From a virus, in the IMG/VR virus record IMGVR_UViG_3300032181_000406, positions 1 to 28,332 of that record: a DNA stretch of 28,332 bases. One strand, 5' to 3'. Positions 811-13,118 of this stretch are shown here, in pieces (position 1 is the first letter of the stretch; every line of letters starts with the position of its first letter). Position numbers and translations under genes: made by a program. The notes under the pieces are model-generated. The model searched no databases and was not told the DNA's origin. It was given only the letters and a program-made list of their open reading frames with translations.

Positions 811-3800
811 TTAGTATGCTTTAATCAACCATCTTGTCCAGATGTATGGAGTAATCAAACCAACCTTTTCTTGTGGTGAGAAAGATGGCGTGGGAATAAT
901 TTGCTTATTTTGATCTAAAGTAAATCTACCAGGAAGAACTTCTATTCCTAGATCTCCACTGTTAAATTGTGCTTCAATAATAGGAGTGGATGGTACACCA
1001 GACTGTACTACTCCACCATCAGAAACATTACCATAACTAAATTTAGTGGGATCTCCCTGAACATTTTCTCTAGTTAAATAATGACTATGACTTAATCGAT
1101 TGACAGGTCTGAATTGATTAATACTAATTTGTCTTTCAGCAGCATCAATAGAAGCAACCCATTTGTGAAGATCTCCAGAAGAAACACCGCCAGGAGGAGC
1201 AGTATCTAGATCAATAAAACTGTTAATCTCATTATAAAAAGGGCTACCAACTTCCAATCCAGTCTGTCTATAGTTTACATCAGACCAACTATTGGTAATA
1301 TGCTCTCCATCACGACCATCACCTTGAACCAGAACAATACCACTACAGAATGATGGTTCCCAATCTTCTGTTGTATTTACCCAAGACGAATCACCCGCAG
1401 ATGTAGTTGTAATAGTATCATCAGCATCAAGTTCGATACCATCGAATACAGCATATCCCCAAAGGTTAATGAATGTATTATATTCAGGTTGTTGTGGTAG
1501 AGCATCTGTATTATAATTTACTGTTTGAAGATCATTACTCCTTCCGCCATTTCCACCCCATGAAATTCTACCTTTAAATCCCTGGTCAATAATACCAGTA
1601 ACAAGTTCATGAACGTGAGTTGGAATTTCAAACAATCTCTGTTCTTTCAAAGAAATATCTCCTCTAGATTCTCCTGTTGTGATGAATTCAATAGTAGATT
1701 GAACATCAACGTATCCACTAGTTCTAATACTACCAATGTCAAAGAACTGAGAATCAATAGGTTCTTGTCCTGTAGGTGGTTGTTCTACCTGTGGAATATC
1801 CTGAGCTGATGGAGAAGCAATAGTATCAATGAACCACAATCCACCATGAGATCCAGGAACAAATGCTGATCTATTTGCTGTATTCTTTGCTGGTCCAAAA
1901 TTAGGAGATAGAATAGCGGAAGACTGTCTGTTTCCATCAACAGGACCAGTACCAACTACTTTCTTATTTCTAAGATCAGGTAATCGGAATCTAGGTGGAG
2001 TTCCAACAAATTGCCCATATGTATATCCAAGAACATCAAATAGAGCAGGATATTCTAATGGATCTAAAGATTGACCATCACAGTAAATAAATCCAGGGAA
2101 TCTAGATACGATTGATCCATCGAGTTCACCAAATCCCGTAACTCCCGGATCTACACTATCTTTAAATACTGGCATCATTGTACCAATAGGTAATCCATCA
2201 AATTTAGTGGCATACTTAGTCTCTTCTATAACTGGTCCAGGAAGTAGATTTCTAAGAATAACATTCAAAGAACTATACCACTGTCCAAGAATAGGTTCTT
2301 GTGGTGGAGTTTCGAGGAATACAGTAAATGTTCCTTCGCCATCACCAATAAAAACTGTACCTACTCTCTGGAATCCAGGGAATAATGGAGATAAAAGTCT
2401 TGCTCTAATTAAAGTTCCATTAATAACTTGTATAGCACTGCCAACACCAGCATAAGTAGTATAGTTTCCTGTAAAACTACCACCAGGAGGAACAACTTCT
2501 AGTTCAATACCACTACCTTCATCTGTAAAGAGAGGAACACCACCGGGATTTGTAATACCAGCAAGTACCACAATAGCAGTGCTCTCTACTAACTGACTAG
2601 GAATTGCAGTTGAATCAACACCAAATGTAAAGTTGTCAGGAGTTGTGCCGAAGTTACCAGAGTTTGTAACACTCCAAGGAACAGGAAGATTAACACCAGC
2701 AGTAACTTGGAATACAACTTGTTCACCAGGAATAAGAGATGTAGTGTAATATAATCTAATAACATCAAACTCAGATACTACGGCACTACTTACACCTAAT
2801 TGAACACCATTGACTTCTAAAAATGCCTGTGCTCCAGTTGTAGGATCAGGAGCAATAGAAACAGTAATATCCTCACTAATATCCTGAATTACTTGTAAAT
2901 TACTAAAGACTTCAACAGCAGGATCCTGATTAATTAATGGAACGAATGCTAAAGTATCAGGTTCTAAGTCTGGCTCTGCTTGTGTTGTAACACTCCACGT
3001 AACTAGATTACTACTACCAACAACTACACCAGTGCTAACTGTACTTACAAAGTTTGGAGATGATGTTAATCTTAGTTGTAATCTTTGTCCGTTTTCGATA
3101 GTAGCTGGAGAAGGATCACTAGGATCCGAAGTTCTCCATGCTCCAAAAATATATGTTCCAGGATTACCAGGATCTTCTATTCCTACTCGTAGTTCAGCAC
3201 CATTAGTAGCGGTAACGTCAACTACTTGGTTAATACCACCAATAGTTACTTGATTAGATTCAACCAAAGTATTGATTGGTTGTAAAAATAGATCTTGGAA
3301 ACTAAAAGAAGAAGGACTTGTATCTGGAGGATCTCCAGTTGTTACAACCCATACAACTTCAGAACCATCACCAGGAGTTACAGTTACAGAATATCCAATG
3401 TTATACAAGAATCCAGTATTAATTCTAAGTTGAATGTAATAATTATTTCTTACAGCAGCACCAATACCCCATGGAGTAGTTAGTAGTGTTGCTATGTCTG
3501 GTGCTGTTCTAATAGCAGCACTTTGACCATTTGTAATTACATCAAATGATACAGTTCCTGTAATACCTGTGATTTGAACAATTTCAGATTCTACCTCGGT
3601 ATCTGGATCTACAGGTCCAGCAGGAGTAAAACTAAAAGGATCAGGTATTGTATCTTGAGGAGGCCAGGCAACAATTACAAGACCATCTTCTCCAGGACCA
3701 AATCCATTTTCAGAATTTGTTAAAGGAGATGTAATATTGGTGAATACAGCAGGATCATAATACCATCCACCACCAGTACCACCTGTAGCGTCAAGATCTT

Positions 3801-6750
3801 CAGACTCGGAAGGAGAAACAATAGATCCAATACGACCACCAAACTCATCAAACTTATCAGTGGTAGTAGTACCGCCAGTACCCCATCCACCACCGGCACC
3901 TCCACCGCCACCACCTTTAGTGGGGTTGTCTTCTCCATCATCACCTACAGAAATAATAGTACCAATAGGTTCAAGTGCTCCACCACCTAAGTTTTGGTTT
4001 CCATTTTGTGATGGTTCTGGAATTGTGGTATCACCACCGGCACCACCGCCACCACCACCGCCTCCAGCAACTACAAGAGTTTGAAGAACAGCAGAACTGA
4101 AAATATCTCCAACTAGTTGGTTGACACCAGAAGCACCGCCACCTCCTCCTCCACCACCGGAGAATTCATTAACAGCACCAGACCCGCCATTACCACCTGT
4201 AGCAAAACCAACGCCACCAGCTCCTCCAGCAGCACCATTGGCAAAACTATCACCATCTTCTCCTGCTGTGCCAACAATAATTTGTACTCTTCTATTATCA
4301 GGATCTTCCCAGAATGCAGCAGGGGAAGAAAGAGTTCCAGAGACCCAGTTTCCAGGAGCTCCTCTACCGCCAATACTGTTTGGTTGATCATCACCACCAT
4401 CACCACCACCAGCACCATAGACATAGAAATCAACCTCATCTGCCCAGTTAGGTAAGAATAATGTAGTGTCTTGTCCTCCCGTTTTTATGTCATATGTATA
4501 TTCATCTTTACGAGTAAGAACAGCAAATTTTTCTGTGACAAATGTAGCACCAAGACCTATTCTGTACGTCATCTCAACAACAGTTCCTGGTGGTCCTGCT
4601 TCAATACCAACATAAGCAGTACCATTGTTAACAGTAACTGCAGTTTGATACACTACATCATTAGTGGATACTCCAGCATTTGAAAATGGAGTAGCACTAA
4701 CAAGACTCAACGTAGTAGCAGCATCTAATCCTTGAAGATTAATTGGAGAAACAACAAATTCACCAGCATTTTCAACAACCTGAAATTCACTTTTAAATCT
4801 TTCTGGAACAATTCTAGGATCTCTAGTTGTTAGAGTTATTGTATCTGTAACATACGGAGGAACATTAAATACCGGACCAAGAGTAGGATTACCTAAAGGA
4901 CCACCATTTGGAGGACCTTGGAATACGATAGAACTTGTTAAAGTTTGATCATAAGAAGTAGAAGATCTAAATCGTAAATTCAATACATCGCCATTTTCTA
5001 CAAATATAGATGTTGACCAACTACCAGTATCATTTTTTCTTATTTCAGCACCACCCTGATTAACAACAGCAGCAATTCTTACATCTTCTCCATCGACAGC
5101 ACTAGTGTCGATAGGTAATGTTGGATTACCATCATCCCCAGCGAGAGGATCTTCTAAATCATTATATGCTCCATCTGGATATTCTACACCAAGTCCACTA
5201 ATAGGAACATCAACATAATATAACCTATCCACTTCGGCATTAGGTAGTGTAGTTGTTGTAGATACTCTTACTTTTCTGTATTGATTAAGTATAAAAACAG
5301 CATCATTATTACCACCATTAATTCTAATCTGATCTAAATCTTGATATCCAGTTCCTCTTTCGACGATTTCTAAAATAGCAATGCCGAAAGCAGGATCAGC
5401 TTGGAGAGTTCTAATTGTGAGGCCAGTAGCAGATGGGGTGGTAAGATTGGTAGTGGTGTATATCGTGTTATTAGTATATCCCGTTCCTTGTTGGTTGATA
5501 TCAATTTCAACATCATCGGAGAATGTAAAAATAGGACTTAAAGTAATGGGATCAGGATATCTATCTACTTCTGTCCAGATTTGTTGATCATCATTTCTAG
5601 TTCCTACTATTTGAGTTACTTCGAAGTTTCCATTGCCTTGATTAGCACCATATGTTCCAGCTGGATTATTGTCAAATCCACCTGGCAAAGTTTTATTTGG
5701 AACGGCAAATATAGTTAAATCACCAGTAGTTTTTGTAGTATAATCTAAACCAATAAGAGTTCTTGCTGTAATAGAATCTCCTAAAGTTAAATCATTAATA
5801 GTTTGTACCCAGTTAACTCCATCGGTAGAGATTTCAATATCACCAGTAGATTCTGCTTCGACAATAGTATCATCATCGATACCTGTGATAGGAAATGTTC
5901 TTGTCTTATAAGTACCAAAATCAAAATCTCTTTGGTCAATAAAATCAGTAAATACACCATCAAATAATGAAGTTACTTCCTGAAGTTGTGCTCTTGTAGT
6001 AATACTCCAAGTGTCTGATACAGCACCATTAGTGCCAGTCTCATTCCAATATTCATCAGAAATAGTAAGTGTTACGTTTGTATTAGTGGTATACCAATCT
6101 TCTGTAAGAATTCTAAGTCTTACTGTATTTCCTGCCTGTACTGTAAAATAAACATTTCCTGATGTATTTCCACTAGCCGATGCTGGTTCAACTACCGTAA
6201 CATTGTTTCCGGAAATATTAATAATTTCTCCTGTAATGTTAGGAGTATCAACATATCTTCCTACTGCTAATTGACCAACATTTCCGGAAGTAACAGTAAA
6301 CGTTTTGCTACCGTTAGTTGTACTTGCTGTAATTGCTATAAATTGATCTTGTTCTCTAATATATGGACCATCGTTAATACTAAATGCTGCTTCTGCTGAG
6401 TTTGGATATACTCCTTTAGGACCACTAGCAGATACAGCAATACGAATAGGAACTCTAAGTTCTATTCCAGAGACTTGAATTGCTTGAGAATAATATGTTG
6501 TGTTCTTTTCAAATACACCAATAAATGAACCAGATGTGGGATTTGTTCTACCAAATTGATCAGTAAATGAAAAGAAATCTGGTTGTGCGTCAGGAAGTTT
6601 CGTACCTACAGTGACATCATCAGTTCCTTCCCCAATCTGAACCTGAAAAGTAATATTAGTATTCCAAGTATCTGGAGTTGGATACCTTAATTCAATAAAA
6701 TCACCAGGATTAACAATAACCCCAGTAGAGCCTGCTGGAAGAAATGGCAT
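811..6750 (-). CDS. Mosaic tail-fibre protein: Ig-like repeats, glycine-rich domain, tail-collar domain (1979 aa)
   Basis: Probable distal tail-fibre/adhesin component of the virion. Residues 1-750 are beta-rich modules, including a small G-x-G-Y...D-x-I-x-I-x-G module near 455-480. Residues about 752-1030 are a glycine-rich domain with runs of 8 Gly, ending in the typical G-x-D-G-L-V-I-V. About 1037-1465 holds four Ig-like repeats of roughly 100-115 residues, most starting F-x-F and most ending W-S/V-V-T-T or similar. A tail-collar domain (PF07484 type: GFIYCDGQ, YPALF, LPDLR) lies at about 1525-1600. His-x-His motifs occur near 1710 (HVH) and 1890 (HSH), and the protein ends in L-I-K-A-Y, close to the L-I-R-A-Y end of the 569-aa collar protein. 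The N-terminus starts in mid Ig-like domain (NPGDFIELRY). The ATG at 6750 has an in-frame stop 21 nt upstream and no clear Shine-Dalgarno. The domain calls are strong; the exact role in the tail is inferred. Confidence 0.9.
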   Translation of the reverse strand: MPFLPAGSTGVIVNPGDFIELRYPTPDTWNTNITFQVQIGEGTDDVTVGTKLPDAQPDFFSFTDQFGRTNPTSGSFIGVFEKNTTYYSQAIQVSGIELRVPIRIAVSASGPKGVYPNSAEAAFSINDGPYIREQDQFIAITASTTNGSKTFTVTSGNVGQLAVGRYVDTPNITGEIINISGNNVTVVEPASASGNTSGNVYFTVQAGNTVRLRILTEDWYTTNTNVTLTISDEYWNETGTNGAVSDTWSITTRAQLQEVTSLFDGVFTDFIDQRDFDFGTYKTRTFPITGIDDDTIVEAESTGDIEISTDGVNWVQTINDLTLGDSITARTLIGLDYTTKTTGDLTIFAVPNKTLPGGFDNNPAGTYGANQGNGNFEVTQIVGTRNDDQQIWTEVDRYPDPITLSPIFTFSDDVEIDINQQGTGYTNNTIYTTTNLTTPSATGLTIRTLQADPAFGIAILEIVERGTGYQDLDQIRINGGNNDAVFILNQYRKVRVSTTTTLPNAEVDRLYYVDVPISGLGVEYPDGAYNDLEDPLAGDDGNPTLPIDTSAVDGEDVRIAAVVNQGGAEIRKNDTGSWSTSIFVENGDVLNLRFRSSTSYDQTLTSSIVFQGPPNGGPLGNPTLGPVFNVPPYVTDTITLTTRDPRIVPERFKSEFQVVENAGEFVVSPINLQGLDAATTLSLVSATPFSNAGVSTNDVVYQTAVTVNNGTAYVGIEAGPPGTVVEMTYRIGLGATFVTEKFAVLTRKDEYTYDIKTGGQDTTLFLPNWADEVDFYVYGAGGGDGGDDQPNSIGGRGAPGNWVSGTLSSPAAFWEDPDNRRVQIIVGTAGEDGDSFANGAAGGAGGVGFATGGNGGSGAVNEFSGGGGGGGGASGVNQLVGDIFSSAVLQTLVVAGGGGGGGGAGGDTTIPEPSQNGNQNLGGGALEPIGTIISVGDDGEDNPTKGGGGGGAGGGWGTGGTTTTDKFDEFGGRIGSIVSPSESEDLDATGGTGGGWYYDPAVFTNITSPLTNSENGFGPGEDGLVIVAWPPQDTIPDPFSFTPAGPVDPDTEVESEIVQITGITGTVSFDVITNGQSAAIRTAPDIATLLTTPWGIGAAVRNNYYIQLRINTGFLYNIGYSVTVTPGDGSEVVWVVTTGDPPDTSPSSFSFQDLFLQPINTLVESNQVTIGGINQVVDVTATNGAELRVGIEDPGNPGTYIFGAWRTSDPSDPSPATIENGQRLQLRLTSSPNFVSTVSTGVVVGSSNLVTWSVTTQAEPDLEPDTLAFVPLINQDPAVEVFSNLQVIQDISEDITVSIAPDPTTGAQAFLEVNGVQLGVSSAVVSEFDVIRLYYTTSLIPGEQVVFQVTAGVNLPVPWSVTNSGNFGTTPDNFTFGVDSTAIPSQLVESTAIVVLAGITNPGGVPLFTDEGSGIELEVVPPGGSFTGNYTTYAGVGSAIQVINGTLIRARLLSPLFPGFQRVGTVFIGDGEGTFTVFLETPPQEPILGQWYSSLNVILRNLLPGPVIEETKYATKFDGLPIGTMMPVFKDSVDPGVTGFGELDGSIVSRFPGFIYCDGQSLDPLEYPALFDVLGYTYGQFVGTPPRFRLPDLRNKKVVGTGPVDGNRQSSAILSPNFGPAKNTANRSAFVPGSHGGLWFIDTIASPSAQDIPQVEQPPTGQEPIDSQFFDIGSIRTSGYVDVQSTIEFITTGESRGDISLKEQRLFEIPTHVHELVTGIIDQGFKGRISWGGNGGRSNDLQTVNYNTDALPQQPEYNTFINLWGYAVFDGIELDADDTITTTSAGDSSWVNTTEDWEPSFCSGIVLVQGDGRDGEHITNSWSDVNYRQTGLEVGSPFYNEINSFIDLDTAPPGGVSSGDLHKWVASIDAAERQISINQFRPVNRLSHSHYLTRENVQGDPTKFSYGNVSDGGVVQSGVPSTPIIEAQFNSGDLGIEVLPGRFTLDQNKQIIPTPSFSPQEKVGLITPYIWTRWLIKAY

Positions 6751-6781
6751 GTTGCTACGAAAATTCCATTACTAGTCCTAC

Positions 6782-6789
6782 TATTTAGG
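6782..6789 (-). promoter_or_regulatory. Late-promoter-like octamer CCTAAATA before the 1979-aa gene
   Basis: The minus strand reads CCTAAATA across the TAA stop of the 65-aa gene, 32 nt upstream of the ATG at 6750. That places it at a suitable distance for a late promoter of the 1979-aa fibre gene, but it differs from NATAAATA at position 2. The same octamer recurs at 7223-7230. Overlap with a stop codon makes chance occurrence plausible. Confidence 0.25.
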
Positions 6790-6982
6790 CTTGATTCTGC
6801 TCGTCTAGTGCTTTAATATCTACCCACGGACCTCCATTTACTCTCACTTGAAGAGGAATAGATGCTTTTATTTCCGATTGCTCGTCGATATTGTTTAAAC
6901 TAATTCTTCCGGATTTATAAAAATCCGATTTTTCTGGATGAATACCAGACTGGTTAATTTTATTCTTCTTAAATTCTTTCAT
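6785..6982 (-). CDS. Small protein resembling the isolated first half of an Ig-like fibre domain (65 aa)
   Basis: The start ATG overlaps the TGA stop of the 77-aa gene as ATGA (4 nt), so translation is probably coupled. The N-terminal ~25 residues are basic and lysine-rich. Residues about 28-58 (ISLNNI...SEIKA...QVRVNGGPWVDIK) align by eye with the C-terminal segment of the three glycine-rich paralogues (sEIkT..PD.QVSVN.Gg) and with the first half of the Ig-like repeats in the 1979-aa protein. There is no room for the second half of the sandwich, yet the next gene begins with a segment like that second half. No family is recognised. It may be a fibre adaptor, or a remnant of a split fibre gene. 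I am confident that it is a gene, not of its function. Confidence 0.75.
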   Translation of the reverse strand: MKEFKKNKINQSGIHPEKSDFYKSGRISLNNIDEQSEIKASIPLQVRVNGGPWVDIKALDEQNQA

Positions 6983-7212
6983 AGTGTACTAAAAAATGTA
7001 TTAATCAATGTTTGAATGTTATCAGGTAAAGAAGAAATATCGTCTCCTTGATTATAGTTTTCTTTTCTTTTAGTTGATGTCTTTACCTGAAAAGGAGTTT
7101 CCGAGTTAGAATCAAAATTATATTGTTCAGTTGTATATACCACCTCCACATATGGATCACTAATACGCGGATATTTAAATTGAACTGCCGAAATAAATGT
7201 TGTACTGTCCAT
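6979..7212 (-). CDS. Small hypothetical fibre-operon protein (77 aa)
   Basis: It is preceded by 13 nt after the 536-aa gene and overlaps the next gene by 4 nt (ATGA). There is no signal peptide or membrane segment, and the protein is polar and rich in Ser, Thr and Asn. Residues about 18-47 (YVEVVYTTEQYNF...PFQVKT) resemble the second half of the Ig-like fibre modules (GD-x-I-x-L-R-x-x-T/S...V-x-T-T), while the C-terminal 25 residues look helical. The upstream 536-aa protein ends in the matching first half, so the two could form one domain. I do not recognise a family. The packed operon position and the coupled overlap argue that it is a real gene. Confidence 0.75.
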   Translation of the reverse strand: MDSTTFISAVQFKYPRISDPYVEVVYTTEQYNFDSNSETPFQVKTSTKRKENYNQGDDISSLPDNIQTLINTFFSTL

Positions 7213-7222
7213 GGTTTTTAGA

Positions 7223-7230
7223 TATTTAGG
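7223..7230 (-). promoter_or_regulatory. Late-promoter-like octamer CCTAAATA before the 77-aa gene
   Basis: It is the same octamer as at 6782-6789, overlapping the TAA stop of the 536-aa gene and lying 10 nt upstream of the ATG at 7212. The implied transcription start (about 7217) would leave a leader of only about 5 nt, so it is a poor promoter candidate for this gene. Confidence 0.15.
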
Positions 7231-8836
7231 ATGAAGGTGGTGTACCTATTTGTCTCATGTTCTGCCAAGTAGAACTACTATTAACACTTACTTGACTATC
7301 TGGATCTTCTGTCTTGATTTCTACGGGTATTTCACTATCATTGATATTAATTTGCTGTGAGAATATATACTGCTGGTTTAAGTCAGGAACAACAGTATCA
7401 ATATCTGGATTAGGATAAGCGTTAGGAGATAATGGTTGCCCTTCAGCATCAAATGTTTCTTCTAAACGTGGTGCTCTAGTTGTACAATTAAAAGTATAAC
7501 TATCCGTCCCAATACTTATCGAGTAAGAACGAGTAGTTGTTTGACCAACAACAAATCCACCAGAAGTACCACCGGGAGTTCTTGATTGATTGAACGGGGC
7601 AGATGTATATCTCACAAAAATAAATTTCTGTGTAGTGGGAACCAAAATTTGATTTGTAGTCCAACTGCTAGCATTTAAACTGAGTCTTGTTCCTACACCA
7701 GAGACAGAATTACATCTACAAGGCATATCAGTTGTATTTCCCCAATCAACCCTAGAATAGTAATCTTGATCGTCTTCTGCGTTTAGAATAGTATTTCCAC
7801 TAGCAGTTTTAGTTCCACCGCTGCTGGTTCCGATTGGTATACCATTTCCTAAAGTTTTAGGACCTGGATTGTTATCGTTAAATACTCTGGCTGTTGTAGA
7901 ACTGAATGTTCTTAAGGTCGGACTAGCAATAGTATTTCTTGCTTCCAAAACATATGTTCTAGTTGCCGGAGAATTAGATCCTGCAGTTGAATTTAATCCT
8001 GTATTAATAGTAGTGGTATTACCAGTTGCTGCTGTACCCAATCCAGTGGCAACAATAGGACCACTAGAACTATTTGCTCTAATACGGACAGCATTAGCAA
8101 GAGTGACACCCCATTGGAAAGTTACATTACTGCTTGGATTGCCATTTGCAGATGTCTGAGTTGTCGATGTAAAGAAAGAAATACTTGGTGGAGTAAAATT
8201 ATAGATTAGTCTAGCGCCACCTCGAGCCCCTGATCCTGCTGGGGCTTCTGTTTGCGTGAATCCGCCAGGTCCGAAAGAGATCTCGATTTTATTACCAGCA
8301 CCTCCACCACCCATCGTTCCTCCATTAGTACCAGCAGGTCCTTGACAGGCACCACCATATCCTATTCCCTGCCCTCCTTGATTGTCACTATTTCCTCTAG
8401 GGCATCCCCCAGCACCGCCACCGACTCCATCAGGGTTTCCATCATCATCACCACCAGATCTTCCAGGTCTTACACTATCACCGGGACCAAACTGGCCTCC
8501 GCCACCTCCACCTCCACCATTATCATCTGTTCCTCTACCTCCACCATTAGCTTGAATAGTAAGTCCGCTCCATCCAGAAATGAAACTACTACCCCCGCTG
8601 TTATTAATACTTCCACCGCTACCAACTCTAATGCTTATATTTTGACCATTTGATACAGGTCTTGCGGGTCCGGCGGAAACCCATCCGCCACCGCCGCCTC
8701 CGCCTCCTTGACGGTCATTATCATCATCACGATATCCACCTCCACCTCCACCAATGACAACACCCCTCATACTAATTACGCCAAAGGGAACATTAAAATT
8801 ATAATTTCCTGGTGAGTTATAATTGACGTTAATCAT
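7226..8836 (-). CDS. Glycine-rich tail-fibre paralogue, copy 3 (536 aa)
   Basis: Probable virion adhesin or fibre component. Residues 1-35 (INVNY, FNVPFGVISMRGVVIGGGGGG) followed by 36-213 form a glycine-rich domain of the phage Gly_rich_2 type: an initial beta hairpin, Gly runs broken by V-S-N-G-Q-x-I-x-I-x-V-G-x-G-G, and a closing G-G-A-R-L-I-Y strand. Residues about 215-320 are an Ig/PKD-like domain, 320-450 a second beta module, and 450-536 the C-terminal segment shared with the 873- and 551-aa proteins, ending M-R-Q-I-G-T-P-P-S-S. The start codon directly abuts the TAA of the 873-aa gene in the same frame, with an AGG about 12 nt upstream. The first 23 residues resemble those of the 551-aa copy (INVNY, VPF or IPF, VIS), so these two are the closest pair in their tips. 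The receptor role is inferred. Confidence 0.9.
   Translation of the reverse strand: MINVNYNSPGNYNFNVPFGVISMRGVVIGGGGGGYRDDDNDRQGGGGGGGGWVSAGPARPVSNGQNISIRVGSGGSINNSGGSSFISGWSGLTIQANGGGRGTDDNGGGGGGGGQFGPGDSVRPGRSGGDDDGNPDGVGGGAGGCPRGNSDNQGGQGIGYGGACQGPAGTNGGTMGGGGAGNKIEISFGPGGFTQTEAPAGSGARGGARLIYNFTPPSISFFTSTTQTSANGNPSSNVTFQWGVTLANAVRIRANSSSGPIVATGLGTAATGNTTTINTGLNSTAGSNSPATRTYVLEARNTIASPTLRTFSSTTARVFNDNNPGPKTLGNGIPIGTSSGGTKTASGNTILNAEDDQDYYSRVDWGNTTDMPCRCNSVSGVGTRLSLNASSWTTNQILVPTTQKFIFVRYTSAPFNQSRTPGGTSGGFVVGQTTTRSYSISIGTDSYTFNCTTRAPRLEETFDAEGQPLSPNAYPNPDIDTVVPDLNQQYIFSQQININDSEIPVEIKTEDPDSQVSVNSSSTWQNMRQIGTPPSS
7229..7483 (-). repeat. Paralogous C-terminal coding repeat, copy in the 536-aa gene
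   Basis: This encodes the ~85-residue module T-T-R-A-P...D-I-D-T...Q-V-S-V-N...M-R-Q-I-G-T-P. The same module is encoded at 8840-9079 and 11466-11717. Similarity is visible at DNA level as well as protein level, especially in the last ~90 bases before the stop, which implies gene duplication within the operon. Confidence 0.85.
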
Positions 8837-11458
8837 TTATGGAGTACCTATCTCTCTCATGTCTTGGAACCCACCAGTATTTATTGAGACTTGAACATCA
8901 GGATTATCTGTTTTTATTTCAGAAGAAACTTCAATGTCATTCATATTTGCTGTATTGGTAATAATATAGGCATCGCTAGGATTAAATGTCGTATCAATAT
9001 CTGGATTAGGATAAGCATCTGGTGATAAAGGCAATCCATCAAAGTTAAAAGTTTCTTCAAGGATTGGTGCTCTAGTAGTTACATTAAATGATGAAGATTG
9101 TGTACCAAAAGAAAAGTTAATTGTTTGTGTATTAGTCTGACCTAAAGTTTGTCCTGCTTGGTTTTGACCACTAGGAGTTCTATCAGAATTAAATGGTGGC
9201 GAAGTATATTCTACATAGAAAAAACTTTGTGTTGTGGGAATTAGAACATTAGTATCCCATGTTATAGCATCTGCTGATACTCTCACCCCAGCACTACCAT
9301 TAGCAAATGTATTCATATCAACTCCTGTAAAATCTACCCGAGTATAATATACCACATTAGGTTCTAATGATGTTATATTAAGTGTACCAGGAGATGCTGT
9401 TGTCCCTGGAGTAATACTAGTGGGGGTATTATCATTAAGAGCACTTACTGTTATAGTTTGTGATGCTGTTCCGGCAGCATTAGTAACAGTCATTGTGTAA
9501 TCTCTTGTCCGAGGAGAAGTAACTCCTGCTTCGGATTGCCCTACATCGTTGACAACTAACGTACCACTACTTCCAGAAACAGAATAAGAAGTAACGCCAC
9601 TTTGTATTGTAAATGTTGTAGCAACAGAGTTACCACTACCATCTTCACTAGTATATGACCAACTAATTATGGTACTAGAAGAAGGAACACCATTGGAACT
9701 TGTTATAGGATTAGGAGAGGCAGAAAATACATCGATAGTTGGAGGTATAGCAACAATAGCTATTTCAGCACTAACAAAGGTAGCACCCGAAGATTCCGAA
9801 ATACTAAAGTTAGTGGCAAAACTAGCATTTAATACAGGGATTTCTACTGGTGAATAAATCTGAAGAGGATTTACAGCAGGGTCTGGGAGTCCACCGGCAT
9901 ATGAAGATCCACCACCTCCACCTCCACCAAAGTATCCGCCAAAATCAAAGTCAGTGTCCCATCCACCGCCGCCACCGCCGCCGCCGTAGTAACCTTGTCC
10001 ACCATCGCCACCAGTTCCATCAACACCATCACCACCAGCACCGCCACCAGCACCAGGAATGTTGTAGTTGATTGTTATATATCCAGTATCAGAATCTGAC
10101 TCTTCTAATATAGCCGGAGCAATAGTATGATAGTTTGGGTTGTAATATCCATCTCCTCCACTGCCGGGGTATCCACAGATATGATTACCAGCAGCAGAGT
10201 CAATACCACCAAGACCGCTATTGAAACCTCCACCTCCACCACCGGATCCACCATTAGCATTAAATCCATTACCGCCAGATGCGGCAGTGCCACCTACACT
10301 AGGCACTACACCACCTAAATCAGAAAGGATAATGCTAGTTGTTCCAGGATTGTCTCCAGCTATGAAATTGGTTGCAGTAACATTAGCGGCAGCGCCTGGA
10401 CCACCACCACCACCGCCAGCAGCAACAACAATATCACCGTTAAATGCTATAGCGGCGGCTCCACCTCCGCCACCTCCACCACCAGAAGTTCCCCAAGTTT
10501 CACTGCCGATTGCTAGACCACCCGTACCACCAGAATTAGCTCCAACAGCGCCAAATCCACCTACAACAGTACCAGCTCCAGTTTGACCATTGCCACCATT
10601 ATTGCCAGAGATAATATCTAATGTTAGACCAGCAACTCCGGTGATACTACCAGATATTTTCTGTCCTCGTCCCCCTTCTCCACCAGGATTGTTATTGAAA
10701 GTTGGAGGTGAACCTATTAGTAGAAAAGAATCACCACCAGAACCACCTTTACCGCCATGTATGACGTAGTTTATCTGATCAACCGAAGCAGGTATTGTAA
10801 TATTTGTGTTACCTGATGTAAATGTTTCCCCAAATGTTCCTACATTTCCATTAGGATCCCATAATCCTCCAGGTTGAGCAGGAACATTTGCAAGATCACC
10901 ACCAGATACTCCAGCAGTTCCACCAATACCAGACAAATATCCGAGTGTAGTTCCGCCTCCTCCACCTGTAGAACCATTTAAGTCTTGACCAGCTGCTCCA
11001 CTTGGAGATCCAGCATTACCACCAAGAGTATTTCCAGGTCTAGGTGGATGACCAGTGCCGAGGAAAGAGAGATCATCTCTAGGAACACCTTCTCTTCCAC
11101 CACCACCAGCCATCATTATGATACGACCAGCATCACCATTGTTATCATAGAATACGCCAGCATAGTCATAGTCACCCTTTACAACAGTTAAGTAATTGCC
11201 AGATTCAATACGAACTGTTCCGGTAACTCTACTTCCATATCCACCATTTCCAAGTGCTGGATCGGCTCCAGGGGGAGCATTATCAGGAAGAAGTCCTCTT
11301 CTACCGTCAAGTCGAAAAGTTATATCGTAAGTAGTTCCTGCTTGGAACACACCACTTTCATCATTTATTTGAAGTAGGCAGATATCACCCGGAAAGGAGT
11401 AATTTGTGAAGTTAGTAATATCTGTGATAGGACCTTGATTAATAAGTTCTATTGTCAT
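8837..11458 (-). CDS. Glycine-rich tail-fibre paralogue, copy 2, with ALK/LTK-like glycine domain (873 aa)
   Basis: It shares its C-terminal 300 residues with the 536- and 551-aa proteins but has a larger and different tip. Residues 1-60 are a beta segment (FPGDICLLQ...YDITFRLDG) resembling the second half of an Ig-like fibre module. Residues 64-205 and 210-525 are two glycine-rich stretches. The second has the order poly-Gly, hydrophobic strand (IAFNGDIVVAA), poly-Gly seen in the ALK/LTK-type glycine-rich family (PF12810), and closes with GYITINY before a further Gly tail. About 572-672 is an Ig/PKD-like domain (I-S-W...Y-T-M-T-V-T-N). From 675 on are the shared modules, ending ...MREIGTP without the final PPSS of its relatives. 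The start has no good Shine-Dalgarno and lies 4 nt after the 551-aa gene. A structural role is well supported; receptor binding is inferred. Confidence 0.9.
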   Translation of the reverse strand: MTIELINQGPITDITNFTNYSFPGDICLLQINDESGVFQAGTTYDITFRLDGRRGLLPDNAPPGADPALGNGGYGSRVTGTVRIESGNYLTVVKGDYDYAGVFYDNNGDAGRIIMMAGGGGREGVPRDDLSFLGTGHPPRPGNTLGGNAGSPSGAAGQDLNGSTGGGGGTTLGYLSGIGGTAGVSGGDLANVPAQPGGLWDPNGNVGTFGETFTSGNTNITIPASVDQINYVIHGGKGGSGGDSFLLIGSPPTFNNNPGGEGGRGQKISGSITGVAGLTLDIISGNNGGNGQTGAGTVVGGFGAVGANSGGTGGLAIGSETWGTSGGGGGGGGAAAIAFNGDIVVAAGGGGGGPGAAANVTATNFIAGDNPGTTSIILSDLGGVVPSVGGTAASGGNGFNANGGSGGGGGGFNSGLGGIDSAAGNHICGYPGSGGDGYYNPNYHTIAPAILEESDSDTGYITINYNIPGAGGGAGGDGVDGTGGDGGQGYYGGGGGGGGWDTDFDFGGYFGGGGGGGSSYAGGLPDPAVNPLQIYSPVEIPVLNASFATNFSISESSGATFVSAEIAIVAIPPTIDVFSASPNPITSSNGVPSSSTIISWSYTSEDGSGNSVATTFTIQSGVTSYSVSGSSGTLVVNDVGQSEAGVTSPRTRDYTMTVTNAAGTASQTITVSALNDNTPTSITPGTTASPGTLNITSLEPNVVYYTRVDFTGVDMNTFANGSAGVRVSADAITWDTNVLIPTTQSFFYVEYTSPPFNSDRTPSGQNQAGQTLGQTNTQTINFSFGTQSSSFNVTTRAPILEETFNFDGLPLSPDAYPNPDIDTTFNPSDAYIITNTANMNDIEVSSEIKTDNPDVQVSINTGGFQDMREIGTP
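8840..9079 (-). repeat. Paralogous C-terminal coding repeat, copy in the 873-aa gene
   Basis: Same module as at 7229-7483 and 11466-11717. This copy is the most diverged (MREIGTP) and stops four codons earlier than the other two. Confidence 0.85.
8878..8885 (-). promoter_or_regulatory. Possible internal late promoter AATAAATA
   Basis: The minus strand reads AATAAATA, an exact NATAAATA match, 42 nt upstream of the 536-aa gene start. It lies inside the coding end of the 873-aa gene, where it encodes part of S-I-N-T. The two paralogous copies of this segment do not keep the octamer, so it could be chance or a copy-specific promoter for the 536/77/65/1979 genes. Confidence 0.35.
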
Positions 11459-11462
11459 TTTT

Positions 11463-13118
11463 TTAAGATGATGGTGGAGTTCCTATTTGTCTCATGTTTT
11501 GATATCCTCCGCTATTAACACTTACTTGAGTGTCCGGATCATCAGTTTTAATCTCAACACCAACTTCGGCGTCGTCCGAGATAACAGTATTACTAAAAAT
11601 ATAAGGTTGATTTACATCCGGTTCTAAGGTATCAATGTCTGGATCAGGATAAGCGTTAGGAGATAGTGGTTGACCTTCATAGTCAAAATCTTCCTGGAGA
11701 ACAGGTGCTCTAGTTGTAACTGTCACCGTAACATTATCAGTTCCACAAGTAAAAGAAATATTTTTGCTATTAGTTTGTCCAATAACTTTACCATTACTAT
11801 TAGTACCACCAGGAGTTCTGGATGTATTAAACTCAGGAGATGTAAATCTTACATAAAACTCGTTATTAGTACCTGTTGTAGTTAATCTAGAAGGTCCAAA
11901 AGTGCTGTTATTTAAACTTACCTCAGTATCTGTTCCGGCAGTAACCTGAGTATTCATATCTACTCCGGTTGGTCTATATCGTATAGAATACACTGTGTCT
12001 GGTTCTAAAGCACTTAGTTCAGTATCATCTACTGTCTGTGTACCATTCTGATTTACAACACTAGTAGGATTGTTGTCATTTCTTACATTGGCAGTGGCAC
12101 TAGTGCTAGTACCAACATTGGGTTGTCCAGGACGAGTTTGTCGAGCAACTAAATACAAAGTTTTTTGAGCAGGACTAGTAACTCCTGCTACCGACGTTAA
12201 TTCAGTGTCTAGATCTACACTCCCACTGCCAGTTACACCATCATAGACGAGATTGTCCACAAGTAGATTTCCCGGAGATCCAAAAGCAGCATCTCTTATT
12301 CGTAGATCAGTAGCAAACTGAACGCCGGTCCAACTACATGTATTTACAGACGACGGGACACCAGTTGTTGAGTTTTGAGCCTCAACAGTAAAAGTTCCGA
12401 TTACTGGATCTTCAAACTCATATTGTATTCTAGCGCCTCCAGTTCCTCCATTTCCTGCTTGACTTGTTGCACCGGTTCCGGTTCCACCTCCGCCTCCACC
12501 ATAAGTTCCACCAACTCCGTTACTAGGACATGGCTGACCACCTCCTCCAAATCCTATTCCTTTACCACCATTTCCAGCAAAACGGGATTCGCCGCCGGGA
12601 ACACATGATACTTCTCTATATCCACAGTCACCATTTAAATTTCCAGCATTTCCTCCTCTTCCAGCACGTAAAGCAGTAGCAGCGCCACAACTACCAGATC
12701 CACCACCTTGATAAAAGTCATCTTCATTACCACCATCTTCTCCTGGTCGATTATCATCTACAGTGCCACCACAAGTTCCACCGGGACTTCCGCCACCGCC
12801 AGATCCTCCTATTCCGCCACCAGCAACTGTGCTTTGTCCTGTAGGAGCATATCTAATACGGGTCTGACCGCCAGGGGAAGAGGAATCAGGCGGAGCAGAC
12901 CCACCTGCCCCCACATTGATTGTCCATTGTTGTCCAGCAATAACAGAATGATTTCCAGCACAATAAGCGCCTCCACCACCTCCACCACCTAAGGCATCAC
13001 CATCATTATCAGCATTACCAGATCCACCAGCACCAATACAAATAGCACGTATGCTTATTACAGCAAAAGGTATAGTAAACGTACTATCTCCAGATGATGT
13101 GTAATTAACATTAATCAT
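11463..13118 (-). CDS. Glycine-rich tail-fibre paralogue, copy 1, Cys-rich tip (551 aa)
   Basis: Probable virion fibre or adhesin protein. Residues 1-235 are a Gly_rich_2-like domain: INVNYTSSG, FTIPFAVISIRAICIGAGGSG, several Gly runs, and the closing strand GGARIQYEF. Unlike the sister tips it holds seven cysteines in that domain (about residues 27, 53, 116, 144, 165, 172 and 197). Residues 238-347 are an Ig/PKD-like domain, 347-465 a beta module (LEPDTVYSIRY...GVDMNT), and 468-551 the shared C-terminal segment ending MRQIGTPPSS. It starts 2 nt after the stop of the 293-aa collar gene with no visible Shine-Dalgarno, so translation may be coupled. Paralogy with the next two genes is clear by eye. 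The binding target is unknown. Confidence 0.9.
   Translation of the reverse strand: MINVNYTSSGDSTFTIPFAVISIRAICIGAGGSGNADNDGDALGGGGGGGAYCAGNHSVIAGQQWTINVGAGGSAPPDSSSPGGQTRIRYAPTGQSTVAGGGIGGSGGGGSPGGTCGGTVDDNRPGEDGGNEDDFYQGGGSGSCGAATALRAGRGGNAGNLNGDCGYREVSCVPGGESRFAGNGGKGIGFGGGGQPCPSNGVGGTYGGGGGGTGTGATSQAGNGGTGGARIQYEFEDPVIGTFTVEAQNSTTGVPSSVNTCSWTGVQFATDLRIRDAAFGSPGNLLVDNLVYDGVTGSGSVDLDTELTSVAGVTSPAQKTLYLVARQTRPGQPNVGTSTSATANVRNDNNPTSVVNQNGTQTVDDTELSALEPDTVYSIRYRPTGVDMNTQVTAGTDTEVSLNNSTFGPSRLTTTGTNNEFYVRFTSPEFNTSRTPGGTNSNGKVIGQTNSKNISFTCGTDNVTVTVTTRAPVLQEDFDYEGQPLSPNAYPDPDIDTLEPDVNQPYIFSNTVISDDAEVGVEIKTDDPDTQVSVNSGGYQNMRQIGTPPSS
11466..11717 (-). repeat. Paralogous C-terminal coding repeat, copy in the 551-aa gene
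   Basis: Same module as at 7229-7483 and 8840-9079. It is closest to the 536-aa copy, sharing the terminal MRQIGTPPSS. Confidence 0.85.

Follow-up and report, generated by a model that had tools for sequence, protein, structure and literature searches.

Two parts of one Ig-like module at the boundary of adjacent tail fibre genes in a cyanophage-like genome

In the DNA analysed here, a viral sequence of 28,332 nt (IMGVR_UViG_3300032181_000406; the whole stretch is referred to as the window), an Ig-like module, presumably a beta-sandwich, appears to be divided between a 65-aa ORF and the 1979-aa ORF that follows it. The original prediction offered two readings of this arrangement, namely fission of an ancestral fibre gene, or mutual completion of the fold by two polypeptides as an assembly lock. 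Which of them is the better explanation, and does the split concern only this gene pair? The first half of the module is referred to below as the plug, and the second half as the socket.

Half-modules in the tail fibre gene cluster

The window derives from a T4-type cyanophage-like genome and carries a tail fibre gene cluster on the minus strand. In the order of transcription, the cluster encodes a 3719-aa protein, two collar proteins (569 and 293 aa), P0007, P0006, P0004, P0003, P0002 and P0001 (Table 1). The 65-aa protein P0002 (MKEFKKNKINQSGIHPEKSDFYKSGRISLNNIDEQSEIKASIPLQVRVNGGPWVDIKALDEQNQA) has the module's first half at its C-terminus, its end lying eight residues past the quoted sequence QVRVNGGPWVDIK. 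The 1979-aa protein P0001 opens with the second half: the ORF starts with MPFLPAGSTGVIVNPGDFIELRYPTPDTWNTNITFQVQIG, with the quoted NPGDFIELRYPT from residue 14 onwards. The gap between the ORFs comprises 34 nt; they do not share a frame, and stops occur in both frames. The original prediction was correct on the sequences and coordinates of the two genes.

HMMs of the plug and the socket were built from other phages, excluding the window and its near relatives. A plug was found in P0002 (iE 3.2e-12) and a socket at residues 1-62 of P0001 (iE 4.3e-18); since the HMMs were built without these sequences, the two half-modules are not chance resemblances. The same HMMs detected plugs, missed by the original prediction, at the C-termini of P0004, P0006 and P0007 (iE 2.3e-13, 1.6e-13 and 1.5e-10, respectively). 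The 65-aa protein is therefore a free-standing version of a C-terminal tag that the larger proteins share. Of the four tandem modules found further along P0001, three are complete and the fourth matches profile positions 2-107 of 113. The C-terminal part of P0001 is gp12-like (phrog_4924, E 1.5e-112 at residues 1468-1979; Collar PF07484, E 1.8e-12).

Table 1. Positions of the genes, half-modules and sequence motifs of the tail fibre cluster in the window
Feature	Position	Strand	Basis
P0001, 1979-aa gp12-like short tail fibre	811..6750	-	
Four tandem Ig-like modules, P0001 residues 1035-1484	2299..3648	-	module HMM, iE down to 5e-27
Socket, second half of Ig-like module, P0001 residues 1-62	6565..6750	-	HMM
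34-nt seam separating both halves	6751..6784	-	
TAAATA, T4-type late-promoter core	6782..6787	-	sequence
P0002, 65-aa mini-plug protein	6785..6982; plug region about 6812-6958	-	
P0003, 77-aa companion gene between large plug proteins and mini-plug	6979..7212	-	
P0004, 536 aa, Gly-rich head	gene 7226-8836; C-terminal plug 7229..7408	-	
P0006, 873 aa	gene 8837-11458; C-terminal plug 8840..9004	-	
P0007, 551 aa, Gly-rich head	gene 11463-13118; C-terminal plug 11466..11627	-	

Two further features of the cluster were observed. The 3719-aa protein, P0010 (15713-26872, minus strand), contains repeated 'CKRDIGYIVDAVSxDxxxGGN' stretches at residues ~191-560, a region with a sub-threshold match to the Pfam Phycobilisome family (E 4e-4; 20.8 bits against a cut-off of 22.2 bits). 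A companion gene encoding 77-106 aa is located 5' of the mini-plug gene in several related loci (e.g. L009 5699-5998, L010 5691-6005); the encoded proteins have a common C-terminal motif like 'DISGEDEFTQKMIRSYWDxYK', and a family search with them gave no match.

One module in two parts

A profile of the complete module (124 columns) was constructed from 90 non-redundant modules of loci collected in two alignment-based scans of IMG/VR (80 of 211, plus 45 loci). In profile-profile comparisons, plugs aligned with columns 17-69 (E 3.6e-6) and sockets with columns 68-124 (E 1.8e-16) of the 124; the socket match is partly circular, as the modules had been picked with the socket HMM, while the plug match is not. 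Column-shuffled and reversed plug controls scored at best 10.5 and 9.1, compared to 32.5 for the real plugs. The plug and socket profiles did not resemble each other (probability 1%). The plugs of the mini-plug proteins and of the large proteins fell on the same module columns and matched each other at E 2e-16. With a 113-position module HMM, matches to C-terminal plugs ended mostly at positions 44-65 and sockets started at 55-65; individual plugs matched weakly (median iE about 1). Residues 7-60 of P0001 correspond to positions 59-113 of the 113 (iE 2e-7), and the domain is incomplete in that chain. A search of PDB sequences with the joined plug-socket profile gave no match up to E 1. By profile comparison, plug and socket are homologous to adjacent, non-overlapping parts of one module, which supports the split-domain reading.

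The original prediction had suggested a search for relatives in which both halves are fused. Such a module is present in phage Sf-CH1b: in SfCH1b_30, the plug HMM matches at 290-343 and 506-549, and the socket HMM at 345-402 and 558-606. As both HMMs match side by side, contiguous plug-socket modules exist, although the gene pair of the window itself was fused in 0 of 154 loci. SfCH1b_30 and SfCH1b_31 both end at module position 91/92 of 113 (...NLSVTIS and ...NMSITVGP, respectively). Sf-CH1b gp12, in which the phrog_4924 match begins only at position 517, starts with MSYTTTWSVSTYAS. This start reads as the last strand missing from both upstream proteins, its 15-residue module match being too short for significance (E 57). 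The alignments thus place the split in Sf-CH1b at the last strand of the module.

These comparisons also bear on the idea that the plugs complete one another, as homotypic C-terminal dimers or trimers, while some other protein fills the gp12 socket. The excess of plugs over sockets and the likeness of plugs within a genome (see below) would suit it. However, plugs represent the first half of the module only and show no similarity to the socket, contiguous modules occur in Sf-CH1b, and plug and socket co-occur and adjoin in the genome. We regard mutual completion of plugs as improbable.

To model both halves in a single chain, we used L113, the closest relative in which plug and socket share a frame, which was read through the stops and submitted to AlphaFold with a 50-row alignment. 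The model was of moderate quality (pLDDT 59.7, pTM 0.51) and contained eight strands, four per half. Its matches in the PDB spanned residues 20-131, and so both halves, and were weak (best Z 5.4). In a viral structure library the top match was gp12 of S-CAM1 (E 5e-3, but rmsd 12). The fold model of a large plug was too poor to use (pLDDT 45). The single-chain models neither prove nor exclude a joint fold of plug and socket.

Conservation of the split and of the seam

The socket forms the start of the gp12-like protein in all 154 loci whose 5' end is intact, and was never found fused behind a plug. In total, 153 plug-bearing proteins from 61 non-redundant loci end at the plug, and 100 of them stop exactly six residues past the last Trp/Tyr. 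One to five plug proteins per phage were identified within the DNA examined, three being the commonest number. In the isolates examined, two to five upstream proteins end with ...VEIKxxxPIQVxxxxxxW..VRQI or a variant of it. A socket is present in the short tail fibre gene of 49 phage records, including S-PM2 and Syn1. A family of 55-66-aa mini-plug proteins occupies the equivalent place in related loci, and isolate Sf-FR1 has the same gene order (82-aa, 58-aa and 1853-aa genes). A tblastn search of phages with the 65-aa protein gave no match, and its relatives were found via viral contigs and from the socket side.

Among 57 phage records with a gp12 trunk, the split was of the window type in 50 and of the shifted type in one, and the remaining six showed neither. 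In S-H9-1, S-RSM4 and ACG-2014h, the trunk forms the very beginning of the gp12-like protein, and neither plug nor socket was found in the region. Phages without plugs are also without sockets.

Strong plug matches outside the C-terminus were all located in plug proteins fused head to tail, except for one protein with a 27-residue tail. The internal plugs are followed by a linker of the 'RQIGTPP..GSS' type and another head, not by a socket. In fused plug proteins of L042, L039, L095, L097, L104 and other loci, the internal plug is kept and a 'RQIGTPPxxxGSSxGGNS' linker is added. This organization suggests fusion of neighbouring head genes.

The seam between the plug and gp12 genes is 9-46 nt long in the 61 non-redundant loci. 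The hexamer TAAATA is present 29-48 nt 5' of the gp12 ATG in all 61 of them, and begins at the plug stop codon in 20. In the window, the hexamer lies 37 nt 5' of the gp12 ATG and shares nucleotides with the stop codon of the 65-aa gene (TAA, 6785-6787). The longer sequence NATAAATA, which is the late-promoter motif of S-PM2 (PMC2984593), was found in the seams of 36 of the 61 loci. In background windows of 50 nt, TAAATA and NATAAATA occur at frequencies of 2.5% and 0.4%, respectively. Absence of the late promoter from clades with a 9-28-nt gap was considered and rejected, the motif being located inside the plug coding sequence there. A T4-type late promoter is therefore predicted before gp12 from its motif. 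A late-promoter core at the seam makes separate expression of gp12 a second reason for the gene boundary, and this leaves the common end point of several upstream genes unexplained.

The seam might be taken as a relic of fission: a late promoter would have arisen inside a module and cut the fibre gene, leaving halves that fold alone or are disordered, with nothing completed in trans. The promoter core at all 61 seams, starting at the plug stop codon in 20, and the only moderate fold models agree with this. A useless half should decay, yet several copies per genome keep their end point, even inside the head-to-tail fusions. In addition, plug and socket are missing together, and Sf-CH1b shows a split again, now at a different strand, with two plug proteins cut alike and no gap. 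We consider such a relic unlikely. The single fission event of the original prediction is too small an explanation for one socket and several plug proteins per phage, and for a split that recurs elsewhere in the domain in Sf-CH1b. Two polypeptides completing each other's fold, its other suggestion, fits better than fission, the complementation itself being what we infer.

The shortness of the seam also raises the matter of recoding, in which stop readthrough, frameshifting or ribosome bypass would yield a plug-socket fusion from both genes; in some loci, such as L015 and L153, both ORFs share a frame and are separated by just two stops. Against this, the lengths of the gap modulo 3 are distributed 25/27/9 in the 61 loci, so that no frame is kept; the seams contain several stops, and a separate promoter core lies 5' of gp12. 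Recoding would moreover fuse the last plug only and leave the others unexplained, and we judge it to be highly improbable.

Variable heads on a common tag, and comparison with known systems

The identity of plugs was 0.64 within a genome and 0.42 between genomes, compared to 0.24 and 0.25, respectively, for the N-terminal 150 aa of the same proteins. Plugs are thus alike within a genome while the N-termini are not, as expected of variable heads on a common tag. Higher similarity within than between genomes was likewise seen for the 85 aa preceding the plug (0.47 vs 0.28). Strict concerted evolution of plugs was only partially borne out, as 53 of 113 plugs had their nearest plug in the same locus. 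Distances between plugs correlate with those between sockets (Mantel r 0.75), and the partial correlation remaining after removal of the gp12 C-terminal distance was 0.57 (permutation maximum 0.13). This hardly exceeds the partial correlation between the plug and the next gp12 module (0.51) and may reflect general co-inheritance; the co-variation is supportive, not decisive.

An N-terminal SUEL galactose/rhamnose lectin domain, scoring above the Pfam cut-off, was found in two plug-type proteins from cyanophage-like contigs (L012 3754-5061 and L004 2710-3936). PHROGs 2155, 29022 and 9770 are labelled 'head and packaging', while their members in our loci are encoded in the tail fibre cluster and end with a plug. 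The literal label was rejected for the plug proteins, two of which have a lectin head and all of which belong to the tail fibre cluster; it is probably wrong.

The best explanation of these observations on ocean cyanophages, and in our opinion a probable one, is fold complementation in trans that docks variable heads on the gp12 trimer. The plug proteins and the gp12-like fibre would be made separately, and gp12 would trimerise by analogy with T4 gp12. Each N-terminal socket would then fold with one plug in trans, tethering a head-bearing protein to the fibre. The socket may accept any plug of that phage, and the variable N-terminal heads would be receptor-binding. The contact between plug and socket is a prediction from sequence. 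The excess of plug proteins over the single socket gene speaks against it. The head-less plug beside gp12 was added in the lineage of the window, and the 65-aa protein perhaps serves as a cap or placeholder, or assists assembly. More tentatively, each gp12 trimer might provide as many as three identical sockets, occupied by various adhesins or by the head-less 65-aa protein as a blank; virions of one genotype could then carry mixed, interchangeable heads, and new heads could join by acquiring a C-terminal plug. The observation behind the original prediction has thus been confirmed and is larger than stated, and its interpretation is partly supported and extended.

No function has been assigned to many cyanophage structural proteins, and 'missing' tail fibre proteins may be among them (PMC2984593, PMC3037559). 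A common half-domain tag would identify one set of such proteins and predict their attachment partner. It would also explain how strongly differing heads are combined with constant attachment. Moreover, at 65 aa and about 60 aa, plug and socket are small fragments whose pairing can be tested directly.

T4 gp12 forms a trimer and binds gp10 through its N-terminus (PMC3004832). P0001 resembles it in the C-terminal part, as indicated by the Collar and phrog_4924 matches, and differs in having an N-terminal part with Ig-like modules that starts with half of one. In the branched tail fibres of the T5-like phages DT57C and DT571-2, LtfA has been proposed to mediate the attachment of LtfB; the same study also discusses phiEco32, G7C and Vi-I-like phages (PMC4728585). 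As proposed here, several receptor-binding proteins would likewise be joined to the virion via one another, widening recognition. In contrast to LtfA-LtfB, docking would take place between two half-domains, one at the C-terminus of the plug protein and the other at the N-terminus of gp12, and several proteins would share one socket.

In the open literature we found no description of split or donor-strand domains in phage tails, which is not proof that none exist. Outside phages, SpyTag/SpyCatcher is an engineered split Ig-like CnaB domain whose parts reunite via an isopeptide bond. The likeness lies in the split Ig-like domain, and the differences in its being man-made and in the isopeptide bond; such a lock is not supported here, as the lysine of the plug EIK motif varies, with T in its place in one clade. 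In chaperone-usher pilins, donor-strand complementation means that another polypeptide contributes the sequence which an incomplete Ig-like domain lacks. The predicted arrangement shares with it an Ig-like domain completed in trans, Sf-CH1b, where only the last strand is missing, being the closest parallel. No chaperone-usher genes are present here and no sequence relation was seen. In contrast to the pilins, about half of the module, comprising several strands, would be supplied by the second polypeptide in the window, and this within a phage tail fibre cluster.
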